DNA from: Syntrophomonas sp.
Lineage (GTDB): Bacteria > Bacillota > Syntrophomonadia > Syntrophomonadales > Syntrophomonadaceae
DNA length: 64,000 nucleotides
NCBI GenBank assembly: GCA_016841425.1
Contig: JAENZE010000007.1
Location: 124,001 to 188,000 of the forward strand
Direction: 5' to 3'
Part shown: positions 2,913-12,053 of the stretch, piece by piece
Layout of the letters: every line of letters begins with the position of its first letter
How positions within the stretch are numbered: the first letter of the stretch is position 1
Translations under genes and position numbers: made by a program
Notes under the pieces: model-generated
Seen by the model: the letters and a program-made list of their open reading frames with translations, nothing else
The model's database searches: none
Told to the model about the DNA's origin: nothing

Positions 2913-3613
2913 CTAGTAAACACCCCTTTTTATAAGGTCGGAGAGTACCCCGCCTGCTACTTAATTATAATATATACATTTGATTTTAATAGTCTCTATT
3001 ACAATATGTCTGCTTCTTGTCTTAGATATACAGCAGACGGCACTCTATTACATTATCTTCTGCCGGGCAGTATGACTGGTTTATGTTTTTATGAGACGCA
3101 AATACAGGAACCGGGGGTTTCCCCCGGTTCCTGTACAGGTGATCAGATTATGTATCTCACTCGGTAATAATAAATTACTCAACTTTCGCACTTGTCCCGC
3201 TAGCGAGTTTTATGCTTTGTCTTAGCAAGGATGGTAAGGCGCTTAACAGCGTGCAAATAGCTGAATAACAAGCATTGCGTATTTAGGAAATATTTCTCCA
3301 TTTGCTAATCTAAGACCGGCTGACGGCGGGACAAAGCATAATGCTCGCCAGGCCAAGTAACCGTTATCATAATGTGAACTGGAGTAAATTATTTATTGTT
3401 TCTTCTCATTATGAGCCCGCTTGCGGTCCGTATGAGTCCGATTTCGCTGCTGATCGGTGATGCAGGTTGACCAGTTCAGGCCCCGCCTTCCTTATATGTG
3501 CTGCCAGCGGATCAATAGCCATCAGTCTAATGTAATAATAATCAGGTATAGTTACAAATGAGTTACAAGTTAAAGATAAATTTAATAGCACCGCTCGGGT
3601 AATCTGAATAAAT
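2913..3613. other. 700-base non-coding stretch with two inverted repeats
   Basis: No convincing gene. Two structures are visible. A perfect palindrome with 15-base arms and a 3-base loop lies at 3103-3135. A longer inverted repeat has arms at 3203-3221 and 3330-3348 (17 of 19 bases complementary) separated by 108 bases. A 60-codon minus-strand frame at 3409-3591 has no ribosome site or recognisable motif and I do not call it. Confidence 0.5.
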
Positions 3614-3640
3614 AAAAAACCTGCCCATATGGCAGGTTTT
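3614..3640 (-). terminator. rho-independent terminator of the HesB-like gene
   Basis: Stem AAAACCTGCC (3616-3625) and GGCAGGTTTT (3631-3640) enclose a 5-base loop and are followed on the minus strand by TTTTTTATTTATT. It is 33 bases past the stop of the HesB-like gene. Confidence 0.85.
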
Positions 3641-3672: not shown

Positions 3673-4002
3673 TTAGTCACAGGATGAACAGGAATCACAG
3701 CCCCCACTAAATGCTGGCTGTTTTTCTCCCTTCAACTGCAGGAATACCTGGGGACCACTTCTAATCGAAGTAAGGACGAAAGGTCCAAACTGATTAAAAA
3801 TATCATTTTCTACGGCAAATCTGATACCGTCATGTTCTTCTACCTGGTCACCTTCTGCTGGTCCATCCAGAACCAGATTAAATGTCATGCCCCCTCAGCC
3901 AATCCTGGCTGTAATCCGCAGATCGTTGGTGTTTATGTTTTGTTCTTTCATCACCTGTTTTAAATCCTCGATGGTTGACGATTCAGTCTTAATAATTTCC
4001 AT
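3673..4002 (-). CDS. HesB/IscA-like selenoprotein with in-frame UGA (Sec36)
   Basis: Read from ATG at 4000-4002, preceded by TAAGGAGTG at good spacing, the frame runs 35 codons to a TGA at 3895-3897 and then continues in the same frame to TAA at 3673-3675, 109 residues in all. The first part ends DLRITARIG; after the UGA comes GGMTFNLVLDGP. Together they align with the A-type Fe-S carrier motif in which IscA has a conserved Cys followed by SG (GLRLGVRTSGCSG in E. coli IscA), so the UGA sits exactly at the first conserved cysteine. The C-terminus is Cys-rich (GGCDSCSSCD) where IscA has its CGCG motif. HesB-like selenoproteins are known from bacterial selenoproteome surveys. A SECIS-like hairpin follows the UGA. 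The ATG at 3886 after the UGA lacks the first motif and is unlikely to be the true start. Likely role: Fe-S or redox protein, precise function unknown. Confidence 0.85.
3858..3876 (-). promoter_or_regulatory. bacterial SECIS-like hairpin
   Basis: On the transcript the element begins 19 bases past the UGA codon and reads CUGGU-U-CU-GGAU-GG-ACCAG: a 5-bp stem, an unpaired U on the 5' side, two more pairs (C-G and U-G) and a GGAU tetraloop. The E. coli fdhF element has the same layout (bulged U, apical loop opening with GG). The loop starts 27 bases after UGA, inside the window usually accepted for bacterial SECIS. Confidence 0.75.
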
Positions 4003-4444
4003 ATTTATCACTCCTTATGGTTGTTTAACTATGACAACATAACTTTATGCTTATATCTTCAAATGGTACAAGCAATTCCTCAATATCATCACACACAACT
4101 TTATTAAAATTCCACCACTAAATTCTAACATGCTTTCTGCTAATAAATAAGGTCCTAAAAAACATTTACCCCAAAATAGATATTGATATAATCTGATTTA
4201 CATTCTAACTGCGATACGAAGCTGTACTTCAGGAGTTGCGCTCCGATAAACTTTATAACCCTTAAGATTAATATTAGCTCTACAGATTTATATTATACTT
4301 ATGAGAAATAGAATGATAAATGGGCTTTGATGTTCTTCCTTGCCTTTATTCGCTAATCCGATTGTCAAAATAATTAATATAGGGGGACTTTTATAGTTTT
4401 AGCGTGTCTGGTTTAGGTATTATGATCTTGGTAATCCGGCCTTA
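4003..4444. other. intergenic stretch, nothing recognised
   Basis: About 440 AT-rich bases between the HesB-like gene and the crotonase. I see no gene, RNA or clear promoter on either strand. Promoters for the leftward HesB-like gene must lie at the left end of this gap. Confidence 0.4.
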
Positions 4445-5224
4445 TTATCGGCCCCTAAACTGCGGGTTACGCTTCTCCATAAAAGCATCTATGGCTTCTT
4501 TTAGGTCCTCGGTTCCACAACAAAATGTGGATTGAGCCTGTTCAAAAAGCAATCCGGCTGCTACACTGCTTTCATCGGCTAGATTTATTCCTTTCTTGGC
4601 AAAGTTTATAGCTGCAGGTGGGAGCGAAACCATCTTGTGGGCCAATTTCAATGCACGTTCCATCAGCTTTTCCCTGGGCACAACAATTTCAACTAACCCA
4701 ATGCGCAATGCTTCTGCAGCATCAATTTCTTCACACCCTATTATCAAACGTTTGGCCTGGCCGGAACCTACCAATTTGGTCAGACGGGTAGTTCCCCCCA
4801 TATCCGGCGAAAGGGCAAAACGCACCTCAGGTATGGCCAGCCGGGAATCTTCTGCTGCAATCCTGATATCACACCCCAAAATGAGCTCTACTCCAGATCC
4901 ATAACAAATCCCATGGATTGCCGCAATTACGGGTATGGGCCACTCCTGCCAGCGACTATAGAGTTTTTGCAGCCAGGTGAGATTTTCTAATACGTACTCC
5001 GAACTGGCCAATCTCAACATTTTAAGGTCAATACCAGCTGAAAAATGATCACCATTAGCATTGATAACTACCGATCGGATAGATTTATCCTTTTCAATAT
5101 ATTGCTGAATTTCTTCCAACGCTTCAAGCAATTCCGGGTTAACCGTGTTTAACGCTTCCGGTCGATTCAAGGTGACTATTCCTACGCTATCCTCTCTTGA
5201 AAACAATAAAGTATCATTTTGCAT
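4445..5224 (-). CDS. enoyl-CoA hydratase/isomerase family protein (crotonase)
   Basis: A 259-residue crotonase. The CoA-binding and oxyanion-hole signatures are present: SAGIDLKML near residue 65 and GICYGSGVELILGCDIR near residues 104-120, followed by PEVRFALSPDMGG. It ends with the usual AFMEKRNPQF tail. Enzymes of this size hydrate or isomerise enoyl-CoA esters in the cytoplasm. The ATG at 5222-5224 follows GGGAGG at normal spacing; an earlier in-frame TTG is less likely. It is the last gene of the minus-strand acyl-CoA block, 263 bases after the acyl-CoA dehydrogenase, so it may have its own promoter. Exact substrate cannot be told from sequence. Confidence 0.85.
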   Translation of the reverse strand: MQNDTLLFSREDSVGIVTLNRPEALNTVNPELLEALEEIQQYIEKDKSIRSVVINANGDHFSAGIDLKMLRLASSEYVLENLTWLQKLYSRWQEWPIPVIAAIHGICYGSGVELILGCDIRIAAEDSRLAIPEVRFALSPDMGGTTRLTKLVGSGQAKRLIIGCEEIDAAEALRIGLVEIVVPREKLMERALKLAHKMVSLPPAAINFAKKGINLADESSVAAGLLFEQAQSTFCCGTEDLKEAIDAFMEKRNPQFRGR

Positions 5225-5487
5225 CTTTTCATAACCTCCCAAATAATAGTTGTATTTTGGAAACTACTCCTGCTATGACTTACAGCCTGACCTTTGCAGC
5301 ATTAAACCCAGCCCTCATATATTTGTTCCAAATATATGAAGGCTGGTTGACTGGAAATTCAATGGTATCTCGACATATCAAAAAACATCACCTAACCCCG
5401 GTTTCCTTAAAAGTTAAAAGCATAATATAATTTCACTTGTTTGCATCACAAGTCACGGATTGTTTTTGACAACTATAGCTACCGAGT

Positions 5488-7305
5488 TCAATTAGGCTGT
5501 AAATACTTGGAGTCCATTTCTACTGTTATGATATCATTACTCATCAGTCTCCTGGAAAGACCATAAATCTTGTTAAGTTCATAACTGAAGAAAAATCTGC
5601 AGGTGTATAGTTTGCCATGATAAAAAATCTCGTCGCTTTTAAGCATGTCCTCATGGTTATCAAGAGCCTTCTGGGCAGTAATTCCTTGAAGCAGCCATTG
5701 CCACGCTATAGTGATAATACCGAACATCTCCAAATACAAAACTGAGTCGGCCAGGAATTCTTCCGTCTTACCCTGCCCGGCCAAACCGGCCAGATATTTG
5801 GTGACCCGGTCCAGTTCCTGCATGGCATCAATGAGTTCATCTGCCCTTGGTTTTAAGTTATCAAAGACCTGGGCCTCATCTAGAGTCTTGTTTACCTCTA
5901 GAATAAATAGGCTCAGAGCTTTTCCGTTTTTCATGCTTACCTTTTTACCCAGCAAATCCTGACCTTGTATACAGGTGGTTCCTTCATGTATCGCATCAAT
6001 ACGTATATCCCTGAAATACTGCTCAACTGGGAAGTCCTGGCAATAGCCATATCCACCCAGGCACTGGATGGCAGCACTGGTGGCAAGAATGCCTGCTTCT
6101 GATGGATAAGTCTTGACAACTGGAACCAGCAATTCTACCAGCAGGGCGTATTTTTCCTTTTCCTCTTCACCGGGCAAAACCTTCTGCAGATCCAGGTATT
6201 TGGCAACCTGCAGGCATATTGACAGCCCGCCCTCGGTAATTGATTTCTGCATCAGCAGCATACGCTTCACATCGGCGTGTTCAATTATGGGAATCATCGG
6301 TGAATTAGGGTCTTTCTCAGCAGGCTTTCTTCCCTGGAGGCGCTGGCTGACATACTCAAGGGCAGCGTAATAGGCGGCAGTGGCTTTACCTACGGCTCCA
6401 ATTCCTACATTTATACGTTCTTCATTCATCATATGAAACATATAGGCCAGACCCATACCTGGCTTGCCTACCAGATAGCCGCGGCAATCATTGCTCTCTC
6501 CCATGCTTAGCTGGCCAATGGGACTGCCTTTATAACCCAGTTTGTGTTCAATCCCATCACAGCTGATATCATTAAACTCCAGGTTTTCACTATCATCGAC
6601 CCGGTATTTCGGTACCACAAACAGTGATATTCCTTTAACCCCTTTAGGTGCTCCTTTAATTCTGGCCAGTAACATGTGCACGGTGTTCTCACAGGCACTG
6701 GTATCTGCTGCCGATATAAATATCTTCTTGCCTTTAATCAGATAATAACCTTTATCGCTTTCTTCCGCACTGGCAGCAATATCACCCAGAGAACTGCCCA
6801 CATCAGGTTCGGTCAGAGCCATGGTACCCTGCCACTCTGCTGTACATAATTTGGTCAGATATTTGTTCTTCAGGTCCTCTGAAGCAAAAGTTTTCATGAT
6901 ATTAGCTGCTCCTGCAGTAAGCATTTCATAAGCACTAAGCGAATAGTTAGAGGCTGTAAACAAAAATCCATAAACAAATTTAATAATATTAGGAATCTGC
7001 TGCCCTTCTAATTCGTAATCCCAGTCCGCATTAATCCATCCGCCTTGACCTATTTCATCCAAAAAGATTCTGACCGCAGGATGCACCTTGGCCTGTCCAT
7101 CTTCATAGCGAGGCGGATTCTTGTCCATTTCCTGAAGTACGGGATAACACAAGTCTGTTCCCATTTTCCAGGCAGTATCAATTATCATATTGAAGGTATC
7201 CATACTGTGGTCCTGGTAATATTCATATTCTGTAAGTGATTCAACCTGGAATACTTCTTCCAGCAAGAATTTAATGTCTCTCCTGTTTGCATAACGATCT
7301 GCCAA
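5488..7305 (-). CDS. acyl-CoA dehydrogenase, large type
   Basis: A 605-residue FAD acyl-CoA dehydrogenase of the long form that carries an extra C-terminal helical domain (residues about 460-590). Seen: ALTEPDVGSSLGD in the middle domain (flavin and substrate contact), MNEERINVGIGAVGKA, GGYGYCQDFPVEQYFRD, and IHEGTTCIQGQDLLG, the region holding the catalytic base in this family. The gene begins with TTG after AAAGGACG; its paralogue at 14041-15897 begins with ATG at the matching place and shares the early RDIKFxL motif, which supports this start. It should introduce the alpha,beta double bond into an acyl-CoA, passing electrons to ETF. Neighbours are an alcohol dehydrogenase upstream and a crotonase downstream. 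Confidence 0.92.
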   Translation of the reverse strand: MADRYANRRDIKFLLEEVFQVESLTEYEYYQDHSMDTFNMIIDTAWKMGTDLCYPVLQEMDKNPPRYEDGQAKVHPAVRIFLDEIGQGGWINADWDYELEGQQIPNIIKFVYGFLFTASNYSLSAYEMLTAGAANIMKTFASEDLKNKYLTKLCTAEWQGTMALTEPDVGSSLGDIAASAEESDKGYYLIKGKKIFISAADTSACENTVHMLLARIKGAPKGVKGISLFVVPKYRVDDSENLEFNDISCDGIEHKLGYKGSPIGQLSMGESNDCRGYLVGKPGMGLAYMFHMMNEERINVGIGAVGKATAAYYAALEYVSQRLQGRKPAEKDPNSPMIPIIEHADVKRMLLMQKSITEGGLSICLQVAKYLDLQKVLPGEEEKEKYALLVELLVPVVKTYPSEAGILATSAAIQCLGGYGYCQDFPVEQYFRDIRIDAIHEGTTCIQGQDLLGKKVSMKNGKALSLFILEVNKTLDEAQVFDNLKPRADELIDAMQELDRVTKYLAGLAGQGKTEEFLADSVLYLEMFGIITIAWQWLLQGITAQKALDNHEDMLKSDEIFYHGKLYTCRFFFSYELNKIYGLSRRLMSNDIITVEMDSKYLQPN

Positions 7306-7405
7306 GTGAGCACGTCCTTTCTTTACTATTAGTTAACAATGTTCCCTTGAGAGTTTAAAGAAGAAATTAGCCTCGTGACTGCTAGCTTTGTCCTGTACAT
7401 GCACA

Positions 7406-8470
7406 CTATCTTTCATAAGGTGTAATTAGATACTTAATGCATCCGTCTTTATTACCACCAAAAGTATCCATGGCCTTTAAAATATCATTTAAGGGACTGC
7501 TATGAGTTTGCATAAAACTGGTATTTATTTGACCTGACTTAATCAGATCCAGCATTATATCCAGGCCATCACATTTCTGGATTCCGGTTCTCAGCTGAAT
7601 ATTCCTATAGGTCATAAAATGTATCGGAACTTCAATGGGTTTAGGAAAAATAGCTACAGTAGCAACAATTCCATAATGTCCGGTTGAACGTATTGCCGCA
7701 TTAATGGTATTTGCTGCCCCGGCAGTATCTATAGCTGCATTGGCCCCATGCCCGCCAGTTATATCCCGTATTTTTTTGATCACATCTCCATCATTGGCAT
7801 TTATAATGTAATCGGCCAGTCCCTCCTTAAAAAGGGTATCTAACCTATACTGCAGCAAGTCAACGGCAATAACTGTTTTTGCTTTAAAAACCTTTTTAGC
7901 CAGCAGACATGCGCACATTCCCACCGGTCCAACCCCAAAGACGCTTACAGTATCACCCTTTTTTACTTCCGCGTTGCTTACCCCGTACCACGCAGTACCA
8001 AGCATATCAGCCAGCAGTATTACCTCTTCTTCCTTTAGACCTTCCGGGATTGGTATCAATACCTGAGAAGCATACGGAATCCGGATATATTCAGCCAGAG
8101 CGCCATCAATACCCTTGACAGTTCCAAAAACCCCGCCATTTTCGCAATAGCTAATATATCCCTTTTGGCACATGGTGCACTTACCGCAAAATATCGCCGA
8201 TATACAGTGAACCCGGTCTCCCACCTGGTAGCCTTGCACTGCTGTGCCCATTTCCACGATTTCTCCGCAAAACTCATGCCCTAAAATACTCGGTGGCTGG
8301 ACAAAAGGCATATGTCCTACTGCCAGATGAACATCAGAAGTACATGGTGTTGCCAGAGTTACTTTCAGAATAACGTCTTCCGGATGCTCTATTTGTGGTA
8401 TGGCTACATCATCAAGACTTAGCTGGTTGGGACCATGGTAGACGAGTGCTTTCATGGTGTTATTTTCCAT
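7406..8470 (-). CDS. zinc-dependent medium-chain alcohol dehydrogenase
   Basis: A 354-residue MDR-family enzyme. Catalytic-zinc ligands are visible as CTSD (residue about 43) and the GHEFCGE segment (His and Glu near 65-66). The structural-zinc Cys cluster is CGKCTMCQKGYISYC near 95-109. The cofactor fold shows VFGVGPVGMCA. It is closest in pattern to bacterial secondary-alcohol, butanediol or sorbitol dehydrogenases. Lying directly after the FadH-type reductase and close to the 4-hydroxybutyryl-CoA dehydratase, it could oxidise a hydroxy acid or reduce a semialdehyde, for example 4-hydroxybutyrate and succinate semialdehyde, but this is inference. GGGAGGT precedes the ATG. Confidence 0.9.
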   Translation of the reverse strand: MENNTMKALVYHGPNQLSLDDVAIPQIEHPEDVILKVTLATPCTSDVHLAVGHMPFVQPPSILGHEFCGEIVEMGTAVQGYQVGDRVHCISAIFCGKCTMCQKGYISYCENGGVFGTVKGIDGALAEYIRIPYASQVLIPIPEGLKEEEVILLADMLGTAWYGVSNAEVKKGDTVSVFGVGPVGMCACLLAKKVFKAKTVIAVDLLQYRLDTLFKEGLADYIINANDGDVIKKIRDITGGHGANAAIDTAGAANTINAAIRSTGHYGIVATVAIFPKPIEVPIHFMTYRNIQLRTGIQKCDGLDIMLDLIKSGQINTSFMQTHSSPLNDILKAMDTFGGNKDGCIKYLITPYER

Positions 8471-8571
8471 AGATTAATACCTCCCAAACTATAACTCTTT
8501 AATTTGACCTGCCCTGCCCACCCTGGCTCACAAACAAAAAATTCTACTCATAGCTGGGTGGGTATCCGAAA

Positions 8572-10575
8572 TTACAGATGATCCATCACTGCCTGGTAAG
8601 CCTGGTGAATAGCATCTATTATCTGTCCGGGATGAAGGCTGTCACCAATAATCGCGAATGGTATTCGAGTCTCCTCCAAAGCATTGGCCAGTTTTCGCAG
8701 CGATTGTGATCCAGTGGCGTTGATTATATTATCAAAAGACTCGCTCCTGCGCTCACCAGCTAATTCATAATTCAAAATCCCGTTATGAAACGAGTGGACA
8801 GTTGCCCCGGTATTAATGTTTACTCCATACTTCCTTAAACTGCTTAACAGCCCCCACTTGCTGCTTTTGCCTATGCCCTTTCCCACCTGCGGCATCATTT
8901 CAAAAACAGTTACTTTCTTATTGCCTTGAAAGATCAATTGACGAAGCCTTTCTGGACTCTCGGCATTATTGCTGAAGAGAAAATGGAGCGTTTCTGGAGT
9001 AATGGTACCCTGAGCAGCAATGAAGTGCGCGGTCTCCAAACCGACAGCACCTCCACCGATTACCGCAATTTTCTTGCCCAATGCTATATTGTGTTTGAGA
9101 ATGTCCCAGGCCGAGATTATCCTTGAATCGTCAAAGCCGTCAATAGCTGGAGTAACAGCCTCGGCCCCTTCAGCTGCAATAAGATATTCAGGGCTTCTTT
9201 GTTTTACAAGTTTAATGTCAACCTCAGTATTAAGAAACACCTGAACCTTATGGTGCTTCAACATCTCCTGGTAGTAAGGTATCAGTTTTAGTAATTCTTG
9301 CTTATAAGGCGGTGCACCAGCTATCCAAAGCTGACCACCTATACGATCAGCTTTTTCATATAACTCAACCTGATGGCCGGCCTGGGCAGCTCGAAAAGCT
9401 GCCTCCATTCCTCCAGGTCCAGCCCCGACCACCATAACCCGTTTTGACCGGTCGGTCCTGGCTATTCTTCTTTCCCCTTCAAAACCAAGCCGGGCATTAA
9501 CCATGCACTTGACAGGTTTCATATTCACAATTTCGTCCATGCATCCCTGAAGGCAGGCAACGCAAGGAGTAATCTGTTCAGGATGACCGGCCTGGGCTTT
9601 TTGGGGCCAGTAAGGATCTGCCATTAGAACACGACCCAGACTAACCATATCAGCCCACCCATCATGAATAATTTTCTCGGCCAGCCAGGGTTCGGAAATG
9701 CGGTTGGATGCCATTACCGGAATGGAGACGACATTTTTTATATTCTGAGCCAGGTAGGTAAACGCACCTTGAGGTACACTCATGGTCATTTGCGGAACAT
9801 TAGTTTCATGCCAACCGCCAGTGACGTTTATGGCATCTATACCTGCTTTTTCATATACCCTGGCGAATTCTGGTGTTTCAAGATCGGTATTGCTGCCGGG
9901 AACAAAGTCATTTCCTGCCATACGAATTGTAATAGGATAATCAGTGCCCAATCTGAGCCTCATCTTTTCGATTATTTCTTTCACAAACCGAATCCTGTTT
10001 TCGAAACTTCCCCCATATTCATCGGTTCGCTGGTTTCTTAAAGGAGATAGAAACTGGCAGATTAGATACCCGGCCGAAGCTATAATCTCCACCCCATCGA
10101 AACCAGCCCATTTAGCTCGTTCAGCACTATTGACAAAGGCCTCCTGGATATCGTGAATGTCATCCCGAGTCATTTCTCTTGCTTGGGCCTTGCTCCATTC
10201 CGAATATATAGAGGAAGGTGCAAGGGCTTGCTGGTCACCAATCTGAATGGGTCTTACATACGCTCCCCCATGGAAAAGCTGAATCCAAGCCTTTGCCCCG
10301 GCCCTTTGAATTGCTTTGGTAAGTTTATAAAAAGATGGAATGGCTTGATCGTTCGCTATAGAAAGGCCTGCGGTACCAAGACCCAGGGTATCTACACCTA
10401 CGGGACCAACTGTAACTATTCCCGCTCCACCTTGAGCCTTCTCAATATAGTAATGAAAGTAACGGTCATTTAACTCACCATTCCAGGAATACAATAATCC
10501 CATAGAAGGATAGACAATCCGGTTTTTGATTTTAGTTTGATTAATACAGATGGGGCTAAAAAGTGTTTTGAACAT
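8572..10575 (-). CDS. fadH: 2,4-dienoyl-CoA reductase (FadH-type, FMN/Fe-S/FAD)
   Basis: A 667-residue three-domain flavoenzyme. Residues 1-330 form an Old-Yellow-Enzyme barrel with the FadH-like GYLICQFLSP (catalytic Tyr) and GGWHETNVPQ (catalytic His). Residues about 338-357 give the 4Fe-4S ligands C-x2-C-x3-C and a later Cys in VKCMVN. The rest is an FAD/NAD(P)H two-dinucleotide fold with VVGAGPGGMEAAFRAAQAGH and IAVIGGGAVGLETAHF. The FadH form of the Tyr motif favours dienoyl-CoA reductase over enoate reductase. Such an enzyme removes double bonds from polyunsaturated acyl-CoA or enoates. It sits 45 bases after the 4-hydroxybutyryl-CoA dehydratase gene and is probably co-transcribed with it. 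Confidence 0.88.
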   Translation of the reverse strand: MFKTLFSPICINQTKIKNRIVYPSMGLLYSWNGELNDRYFHYYIEKAQGGAGIVTVGPVGVDTLGLGTAGLSIANDQAIPSFYKLTKAIQRAGAKAWIQLFHGGAYVRPIQIGDQQALAPSSIYSEWSKAQAREMTRDDIHDIQEAFVNSAERAKWAGFDGVEIIASAGYLICQFLSPLRNQRTDEYGGSFENRIRFVKEIIEKMRLRLGTDYPITIRMAGNDFVPGSNTDLETPEFARVYEKAGIDAINVTGGWHETNVPQMTMSVPQGAFTYLAQNIKNVVSIPVMASNRISEPWLAEKIIHDGWADMVSLGRVLMADPYWPQKAQAGHPEQITPCVACLQGCMDEIVNMKPVKCMVNARLGFEGERRIARTDRSKRVMVVGAGPGGMEAAFRAAQAGHQVELYEKADRIGGQLWIAGAPPYKQELLKLIPYYQEMLKHHKVQVFLNTEVDIKLVKQRSPEYLIAAEGAEAVTPAIDGFDDSRIISAWDILKHNIALGKKIAVIGGGAVGLETAHFIAAQGTITPETLHFLFSNNAESPERLRQLIFQGNKKVTVFEMMPQVGKGIGKSSKWGLLSSLRKYGVNINTGATVHSFHNGILNYELAGERRSESFDNIINATGSQSLRKLANALEETRIPFAIIGDSLHPGQIIDAIHQAYQAVMDHL

Positions 10576-10619
10576 GGTTTACCTCCTAAAGCAGCGTAAA
10601 AAGGGGTGTATTATATTGT

Positions 10620-12053
10620 CTAATCTTCCTTAATGCCTGCCAAATACCTGGCCAGTTTCTTTTTTGATTTAACATCATAGGTGCTCATTATAGCTATGTC
10701 CTCCATAATTGGGGAACCACCGCCATGAACCCCGCCAACCAGCAATGCCGATCCAACTTCACCGGTCAATATATCGCTGGCCAGATGGTAGGCCCGATAA
10801 TGGTTTTCTTCGGAAACTCCTGCTCTACGTTTGGAATATTTCCTTACAAAATCGCCCACGATTGGGCTGTTGTACTCTTTGGAAAGAGGTAAGGTGGCCG
10901 GAAGTCCACCTGCTATATCACATAAAATATCATACTCATGATAAATGTTTTGCCCGGCATGCCTTCTTCCGACGTTGGCATAAATGATGTTGGGAATTTG
11001 AGTACCTGAGGGAGCCTTCATCGATTTAACACTGGCGGCAATCCCGGCGGCGTATACCAGCTCAGCTACACTGATCATATCCGCAAGTTTTTCCCGGGTA
11101 TGACCTGTCTTCTCCACCCCGTTATAATCTGCCAGCAGAGCCGTTGTTCCCATCATCACATCACCTATGCCAGGTTTGCATCCGCAGTAGCTGTGGCGGT
11201 GGTACAGGGCAAACATAAGCGCTAATTCCCCGCCAAATTCGGTTTCTCCATTGATAAATATCCTGTCGTTGGGCACAAAAACATTGTCAAAAACGGTAAA
11301 GCTCTCAATATCACCAAGATCAGTATAGGGCGCTTCCATTCCCTTCTCCCGCGGGGGTGAAAATGCCTCCCGCCCGATCAGGTAAACACCTTCCGTATCG
11401 GCCGGAATAGCAAAGGCAATGGCATAATCCTTCTCATCTTTGCCCAGAGCACGAGTCGGGATGGCAATAAGTTCATCAGAATAAGGAGCCATGGTATTAT
11501 GAAGCTTGGCACCTCTTACTACAACTCCATCCGGTCTCCTCTCTACTACGTGCAGGTACATGTCAGGATCCGGCTGGTCTCCAGGTCTGAGACTCCGGTC
11601 TCCTTTGGCATCGGTCTGTGAACAGGCTGCTACGAGATCATTCTCCTGGAAGTATTCCAGATATTTCAGCCATCGTTCGTGATAATTAGTTCCATACTTA
11701 ATATCAGCGTTTTTGGTAGTCACAGAAAGACCATTCATAACATCAATGCCCATGCAGCGCTGGATACATCCGCCTACTCGATTGCACATCAGTCGTGTCA
11801 TTTCCTGCTTTTTAAGCAAGTCTTCCGGTGTTTGGTGGATGTGGGTGAATCTATTAATAGGTTTGCCAGTAATATGAGAAGTTGTCTTTAGTACGTGGCT
11901 GTATTCAGGATCTTCTGCTAAATCAAAGGTCAATTGAATGGCTTTGCTGGCATTAACCACCTTGGGATGATCTCGTCCAATGACTTCTCCATCCAAATAT
12001 ATGTTCTTTCTCATGCCAGCTAATTTTTCAAGATATTCCTGTGTAGTCCTCAT
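10620..12053 (-). CDS. abfD: 4-hydroxybutyryl-CoA dehydratase / vinylacetyl-CoA delta-isomerase
   Basis: A 477-residue member of the 4-hydroxyphenylacetate-3-hydroxylase fold. The 4Fe-4S ligands of the Clostridium aminobutyricum enzyme (Cys99, Cys103, His292, Cys299) have counterparts with the same spacing: Cys96 and Cys100 in GGCIQRCMG, and His285 and Cys292 in YHRHSYCGCK. Keeping all four ligands separates the dehydratase from the flavin hydroxylases, which lack the cluster. The reaction is oxygen-sensitive radical dehydration of 4-hydroxybutyryl-CoA to crotonyl-CoA. A sigma-54 promoter lies 30-60 bases before the ATG, and GAGGAGG gives a strong ribosome site. With the CoA-transferase gene just upstream and beta-oxidation genes around it, it feeds 4-hydroxybutyrate into acetyl-CoA formation. 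Confidence 0.93.
   Translation of the reverse strand: MRTTQEYLEKLAGMRKNIYLDGEVIGRDHPKVVNASKAIQLTFDLAEDPEYSHVLKTTSHITGKPINRFTHIHQTPEDLLKKQEMTRLMCNRVGGCIQRCMGIDVMNGLSVTTKNADIKYGTNYHERWLKYLEYFQENDLVAACSQTDAKGDRSLRPGDQPDPDMYLHVVERRPDGVVVRGAKLHNTMAPYSDELIAIPTRALGKDEKDYAIAFAIPADTEGVYLIGREAFSPPREKGMEAPYTDLGDIESFTVFDNVFVPNDRIFINGETEFGGELALMFALYHRHSYCGCKPGIGDVMMGTTALLADYNGVEKTGHTREKLADMISVAELVYAAGIAASVKSMKAPSGTQIPNIIYANVGRRHAGQNIYHEYDILCDIAGGLPATLPLSKEYNSPIVGDFVRKYSKRRAGVSEENHYRAYHLASDILTGEVGSALLVGGVHGGGSPIMEDIAIMSTYDVKSKKKLARYLAGIKED

Follow-up and report, generated by a model that had tools for sequence, protein, structure and literature searches.

A short reading frame in the genome of a Syntrophomonas species raises a simple question. 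Is the single in-frame TGA that interrupts it a defect, a point of termination, or a codon for selenocysteine (Sec)? The analysis described here indicates that the frame is very probably a working selenoprotein gene, with Sec at UGA codon 36 of a protein predicted to adopt the fold of A-type carriers. The invariance of the TGA, the pattern of selection, a bacterial SECIS-type hairpin, the Sec machinery of the genome, alignment with a conserved Cys and the predicted fold together support a selenoprotein gene related to the HesB-like kind.

The interrupted frame

The window (the whole 64-kb stretch of DNA analysed) carries on its minus strand, at 3673–4002, a single frame that opens with an ATG (4000–4002), closes with a TAA (3673–3675) and is broken solely by a TGA at 3895–3897. 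The predicted product has 109 residues, with the TGA as residue 36. An earlier note on this DNA had described such an interrupted frame, a well-placed ATG and three C-terminal Cys, and all of these are borne out. A Shine–Dalgarno-like AAGGAGTG is located at 4016–4009 of the minus strand (read by eye). Cys102 (3697–3699), Cys105 (3688–3690) and Cys108 (3679–3681) form a CxxCxxC tail, and are invariant in a 14-member alignment and in motif tallies. Assignment of the whole region as coding draws on the frame, its homologues and substitution rates on both sides of the TGA. In a listing of open reading frames of at least 60 aa, the gene is represented only by a 71-aa piece from 3888, 3' of the TGA; truncation by standard gene callers, as the note had proposed, is thus plausible. 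An intrinsic-terminator-like stem-loop with a T-rich tail follows the gene (3616–3640, minus strand), and is weak evidence alone because one was found where 1.0 was expected in shuffles.

The surroundings hold further features. The non-coding stretch 3' of the gene contains a 22-nt inverted repeat (86%; 3200–3221 with 3330–3351) whose arms enclose 108 nt, together with a perfect 15-bp palindromic hairpin at 3103–3135. A run of genes at 4445–12053 (minus strand) resembles enzymes of fatty-acid and hydroxybutyrate degradation (by eye).

The bare TGA-bridged pattern is not rare, and is no proof by itself. Ten frames with at least 30 codons before a TGA and at least 60 after it occur in the 64 kb; the other nine were read by eye only. 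Folded as a single sequence, the 51-nt segment around the UGA and 3' of it is ordinary (z −0.36; 67 of 200 shuffles do as well). Taken by itself, the 19-nt hairpin reaches z −3.76, but this stretch was picked after the fact. What lifts the pattern above chance is comparison with relatives: the TGA is invariant in 26/26 rows, dN/dS is low on both sides, and stem pairing lies beyond 4000 synonymous recodings.

Distribution and selection

A first search found a match in 19 of 61 relative genomes, and 14 proteins from those 19 supplied the profile for a search of the bacterial family. The gene is present in 26 of 54 family genomes, the best match carrying a TGA in each, and is absent from the remaining 28. 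In a DNA alignment of the 26 carriers the TGA is invariant. Farther homologues have either Sec or Cys at position 36, the outcome that the note had named as support. A named relative, 76% identical, comes from a Syntrophomonas sp. MAG, and a single-protein scan of the genome contigs gave one locus. No match at E <= 1e-12 was found in nine genomes from other families of the same order (the order search and the class search drew on one set of 63 genomes). A phylum sample of 398 genomes, each of completeness 80% or more, yielded 37 matches at E <= 1e-8. Six of these lie in the family and 31 outside it, the latter comprising 16 with TGA and 15 without.

Both halves of the gene are under purifying selection, with dN/dS of 0.07–0.22 before the TGA and 0.10–0.16 after it (six pairs from four genus members). 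Invariant residues occur on both sides of the site in 14 members: LRI before it, G-Sec-G-G at the site and the three terminal Cys. Homologues that begin after the UGA and lack the first half would, according to the note, have counted against a selenoprotein; the homologues keep the pre-UGA half. A start downstream of the UGA, giving the 71-aa product, is rejected, since only 15 of 26 rows have the Met three codons 3' of it. Two carriers have broken copies. The gene of G031 is split between contigs. In G028 (L055 / L021, G028:C1) the gene end with CxxCxxC lies in another frame, through either a real frameshift or an assembly error.

The downstream hairpin

A hairpin of the bacterial SECIS type follows the UGA (3858–3876, minus strand), identified from SECIS criteria, covariation, recoding and folding. 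It begins 19 nt and ends 37 nt after the TGA, and consists of a 7-bp stem with the loop UGGAU (3869–3865), a folding energy of -8.9 kcal/mol and a UGA-to-loop spacing of 25 nt. The bSECIS model, as quoted in PMC13188914, specifies a loop of 3–9 nt with G in the first two bases, a stem of 4–16 bp, a UGA-loop distance of 16–37 nt and an energy <= -7.5 kcal/mol. The window hairpin fits every one of these terms. The hairpin lies where the earlier note had placed it. The bulged U described there is not seen in the folds; the stem is unbroken, and the loop opens with the U that precedes GG.

The model was applied to relatives with a script that counted unbroken stems only. It fits 24 of 26 family rows (the exceptions are L015 and L044), 7 of 16 more distant Sec rows and none of 11 Cys homologues. 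The non-family test covered 11 of 15 Cys-type and 12 of 16 TGA-type matches plus four paralogues from genus g17; four Cys-type and three TGA-type matches without a locus, the unreadable L068 and paralogue L107 were set aside. By eye, the folds of 14 of the 16 other Sec rows have a hairpin at the same place.

Conservation of the stem is visible at several levels. Across the 26 rows, 97.3% of stem cells are paired, and three pairs are altered on both sides, giving 11 compensatory cells. Three of five covariation measures exceed all 500 shuffles; the other two fall short of this (71 and 70 of 500). Observed pairing is 6.81 of 7, against 4.75 expected from synonymous recoding with uniform codons and 4.86 with window usage, and none of the 4000 recodings is as high under either codon model. 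About 5% of recodings of the window row alone retain all seven pairs, so the row set, not the window row, carries this test. Synonymous variation is reduced over the hairpin: Leu +9 is CTG in 26/26 rows, and six codons are used for Leu -8. In a Cys homologue, L060 of G048, a CTCTGGATGA stretch is kept at the position of the hairpin loop in Sec relatives, possibly a remnant of a Sec-to-Cys change.

Selenocysteine machinery of the source genome

The note had asked for selA, selB, selC (tRNA-Sec) and selD, and held that their absence would count against a selenoprotein. All four are present over their cut-offs. The tRNA-Sec scores 69.7 bits (gathering score 47) and has the anticodon tca, selB scores 366 bits (cut-off 242.25), selA 584.6 (cut-off 267.9) and selD 382.8 (cut-off 125). 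The complete set is located on one contig (contig 17), within approximately 10 kb (L040:3465-12984, minus strand), and selD has its own in-frame UGA, in GUAAK.

Across the family, selB is over cut-off in 49 of 54 genomes. Every carrier has part of the Sec-decoding apparatus, 25 of the 26 by selB and G069 by tRNA-Sec; this last genome (88% complete, an incomplete assembly) has the gene and tRNA-Sec without selA or selB. Four family genomes, two of them 76–80% complete, have neither the gene nor selB, selA or tRNA-Sec over cut-off. Co-occurrence of the gene with the Sec trait is nevertheless weak by itself, because the gene is also missing from 24 genomes that have selB.

Fold and family placement

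A-type carriers present a first thiol in a GCxG turn and two more in a C-terminal CxC. Compared with this layout, as seen in IscA and SufA, the window protein has Sec in the first position and CxxCxxC in place of the CGC tail. The clade profile matches AQ_1857, IscA, SufA and HI1723 in the PDB; a further match to ribosomal protein L29 (E 0.0065) was taken as noise. Aligned to AQ_1857, IscA and SufA, residue 36 falls on the first Cys of their GC-G turn, in agreement with the note, which had placed the TGA at the first conserved Cys of these carriers. The AlphaFold model (pLDDT 86.9, with a low-confidence tail) has the same four proteins as its nearest PDB folds and puts residue 36 in the turn between strands 27–35 and 38–44. 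The modelled protein can thus be assigned to the A-type carrier (IscA/SufA) fold.

Curated models recognize this protein poorly. The best NCBIfam models are IscA_HesB_Se (NF038090; 38.7 bits, cut-off 85) and HesB_rel_seleno (TIGR01911; 36.7, cut-off 66.35), and the window protein falls below both cut-offs. The two models match 14/14 members at E <= 0.01. These cut-offs discriminate poorly here, because among six UxGP Sec rows scored against them (L058 partial) one passes TIGR01911 and none NF038090. In contrast to ordinary A-type carriers, the window protein scores under the TIGR00049 cut-off, is unseen by PF01521 and belongs to a gene that more than half of the family genomes lack. A Pfam search of the protein gave no match of any kind, and Rfam at gathering scores gave none in the 64-kb window. 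No ordinary A-type carrier was found in the source genome by PF01521, which matched in 9 of 14 control genomes; this silence is weak since the model also misses the window protein. The clade profile detected no second copy in the source genome.

HesB-like selenoproteins (TIGR01911 / NF038090, for example that of Methanococcus maripaludis) resemble the window protein in length and have Sec at the same carrier Cys position, and the distant bacterial Sec rows fold a hairpin at the same place. Their motif is UxGP (PMC13188914). The proline is retained in 13/13 distant Sec rows, whereas it is absent in 26/26 family rows, where M, A, V, I, S or T replaces it. The tail also differs: CxxCxxC is found in 24/24 unbroken family rows and, for the two broken genes, in their detached ends, compared with 1/13 distant Sec rows. 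(The tally omitted L052, L056, L057 and L068; for L052, L020 and L021 the tails were inspected separately.) In a tree of 47 rows, 23 family sequences lie on one side of a branch with support of 100/99. Six of 53 rows were left out (L014, L052, L055, L056, L057 and L068), and a meeting of long branches was flagged. The note's designation as a HesB/IscA-like selenoprotein needs one correction: the protein is not a typical HesB-like selenoprotein but belongs to a clade of its own that lacks the UxGP proline and scores under curated cut-offs.

Other HesB-like genes were encountered in the family. Four genus g17 genomes (G020, G069, G067 and G070) have, alongside the divergent gene, a second one of the UGGP type (L058, L103, L104 and L106), which contains a UGA and a UGGAU-loop hairpin of its own; three of these four pass the SECIS test and L106 does not. 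Two profile-matching paralogues, L056 (G073) and L057 (G008), have neither Sec nor Cys at the site. L056 is cut by a contig end; L057 also lacks the Cys tail, and a MoeA-like frame (by eye) is near it.

Gene neighbourhood

Neighbours were compared at 21 loci, the window and 20 relatives, with carriers G026, G031, G061, G066 and G074 left aside. No broadly conserved neighbour was found: cluster 0 (seven loci) is a frame that overlaps the gene in antisense, and every other cluster is confined to 6/21 loci or fewer. Cluster 5 is downstream in all four genus-g1 loci, as the next same-direction frame in three and not adjacent in L085. Clusters 4, 7 and 12 are upstream in genera g12/g21, and other clusters are shared within g2 or g17. 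Cluster 12 is an MsrA-like frame (by eye), upstream in 3/21 loci (L092, L093 and L097) from two genera. The neighbours of the 21 loci indicate no function.

Proposed mechanism and alternatives

A general mechanism can be proposed. (i) SelB carrying Sec-tRNA(UCA), guided by the hairpin 19–37 nt downstream, would insert Sec at UGA codon 36. (ii) The selenolate of residue 36 would be placed in the turn that carries the first Cys of IscA and SufA. (iii) The flexible CxxCxxC tail would supply three further thiols. (iv) Selenolate and tail thiols may then serve, as in IscA, as ligands of iron or an Fe-S cluster, the protein being accessory rather than essential. The fold and the ligand positions make such a site the first guess, one we would give roughly even chances. 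Counted against this last step are the absence of the gene from 28 of 54 genomes, the lack of a broadly conserved neighbour, the low-confidence tail, and CxxCxxC instead of CGC. A stronger version is more doubtful: that this is a dedicated Sec form of the A-type carrier, for which the 26 clade members seen include no Cys version, whose Sec and CxxCxxC ligate iron or Fe-S and which is the sole A-type-carrier-like protein recognized in the genome by the two profiles tried.

The main rival to the Fe-S ligand reading is that Sec acts as a redox centre. Sec36 and a tail Cys would form a selenenylsulfide, and the protein, an IscA-like scaffold with no cluster, would serve as a thiol-disulfide or peroxide reductant. 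Most uncharacterized selenoproteins are likely redox proteins according to the review PMC13188914, as quoted; the CxxCxxC tail is retained in all rows read; and the MsrA-like frame mentioned above stands near three loci. The fold and the Sec position, on the other hand, match IscA and SufA, not the thioredoxin fold, and the redox reading is possible, though the less probable of the two.

The remaining alternatives concern the codon itself. A Sec UGA can terminate at low selenium. Here it might mainly yield a 35-residue peptide, with read-through as a selenium-dependent switch, but purifying selection is similar on both halves and the tail Cys are invariant, so regulated termination as the principal output is very unlikely. 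A pseudogene or a sequencing error at one codon could account for a lone TGA in a frame that is open elsewhere, and the displaced end in G028 and the split gene in G031 are of that character; the same TGA in 26/26 genomes, low dN/dS on both sides and reduced synonymous variation over the hairpin rule it out for practical purposes. Genome-wide reading of UGA as Trp or another residue, for which no support was found, is the least credible of all and is set aside by the 6/38 window ORFs of at least 200 codons that end in TGA (mechanical listing), the Cys at the site in distant homologues and the tca anticodon of the tRNA-Sec.

Significance

The HesB-like kind of selenoprotein is already known. 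It is among the commoner bacterial selenoproteins, with 86 organisms in a table of PMC5029168. Mutagenesis and 75Se labelling revealed the M. maripaludis protein, and PMC11097638 quotes an unpublished observation that nitrogen fixation was not impaired in the mutant; the function of these proteins is described there as unclear. A 2006 listing gave Syntrophomonas wolfei no HesB-like selenoprotein (PMC1794560). Literature searches, with supplements outside their scope, found no paper on the divergent clade. The novelty lies in a variant found only in this family within what was searched, with Sec in 26/26 members and with a motif and a tail that differ from the known ones.

Genes of this sort can escape curated cut-offs, and public gene models at these loci may therefore be truncated or absent. 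A clade in which every one of 26 members has Sec, together with a tail motif of its own, would offer a clean system for asking why selenium is used over sulfur in a carrier-type protein.
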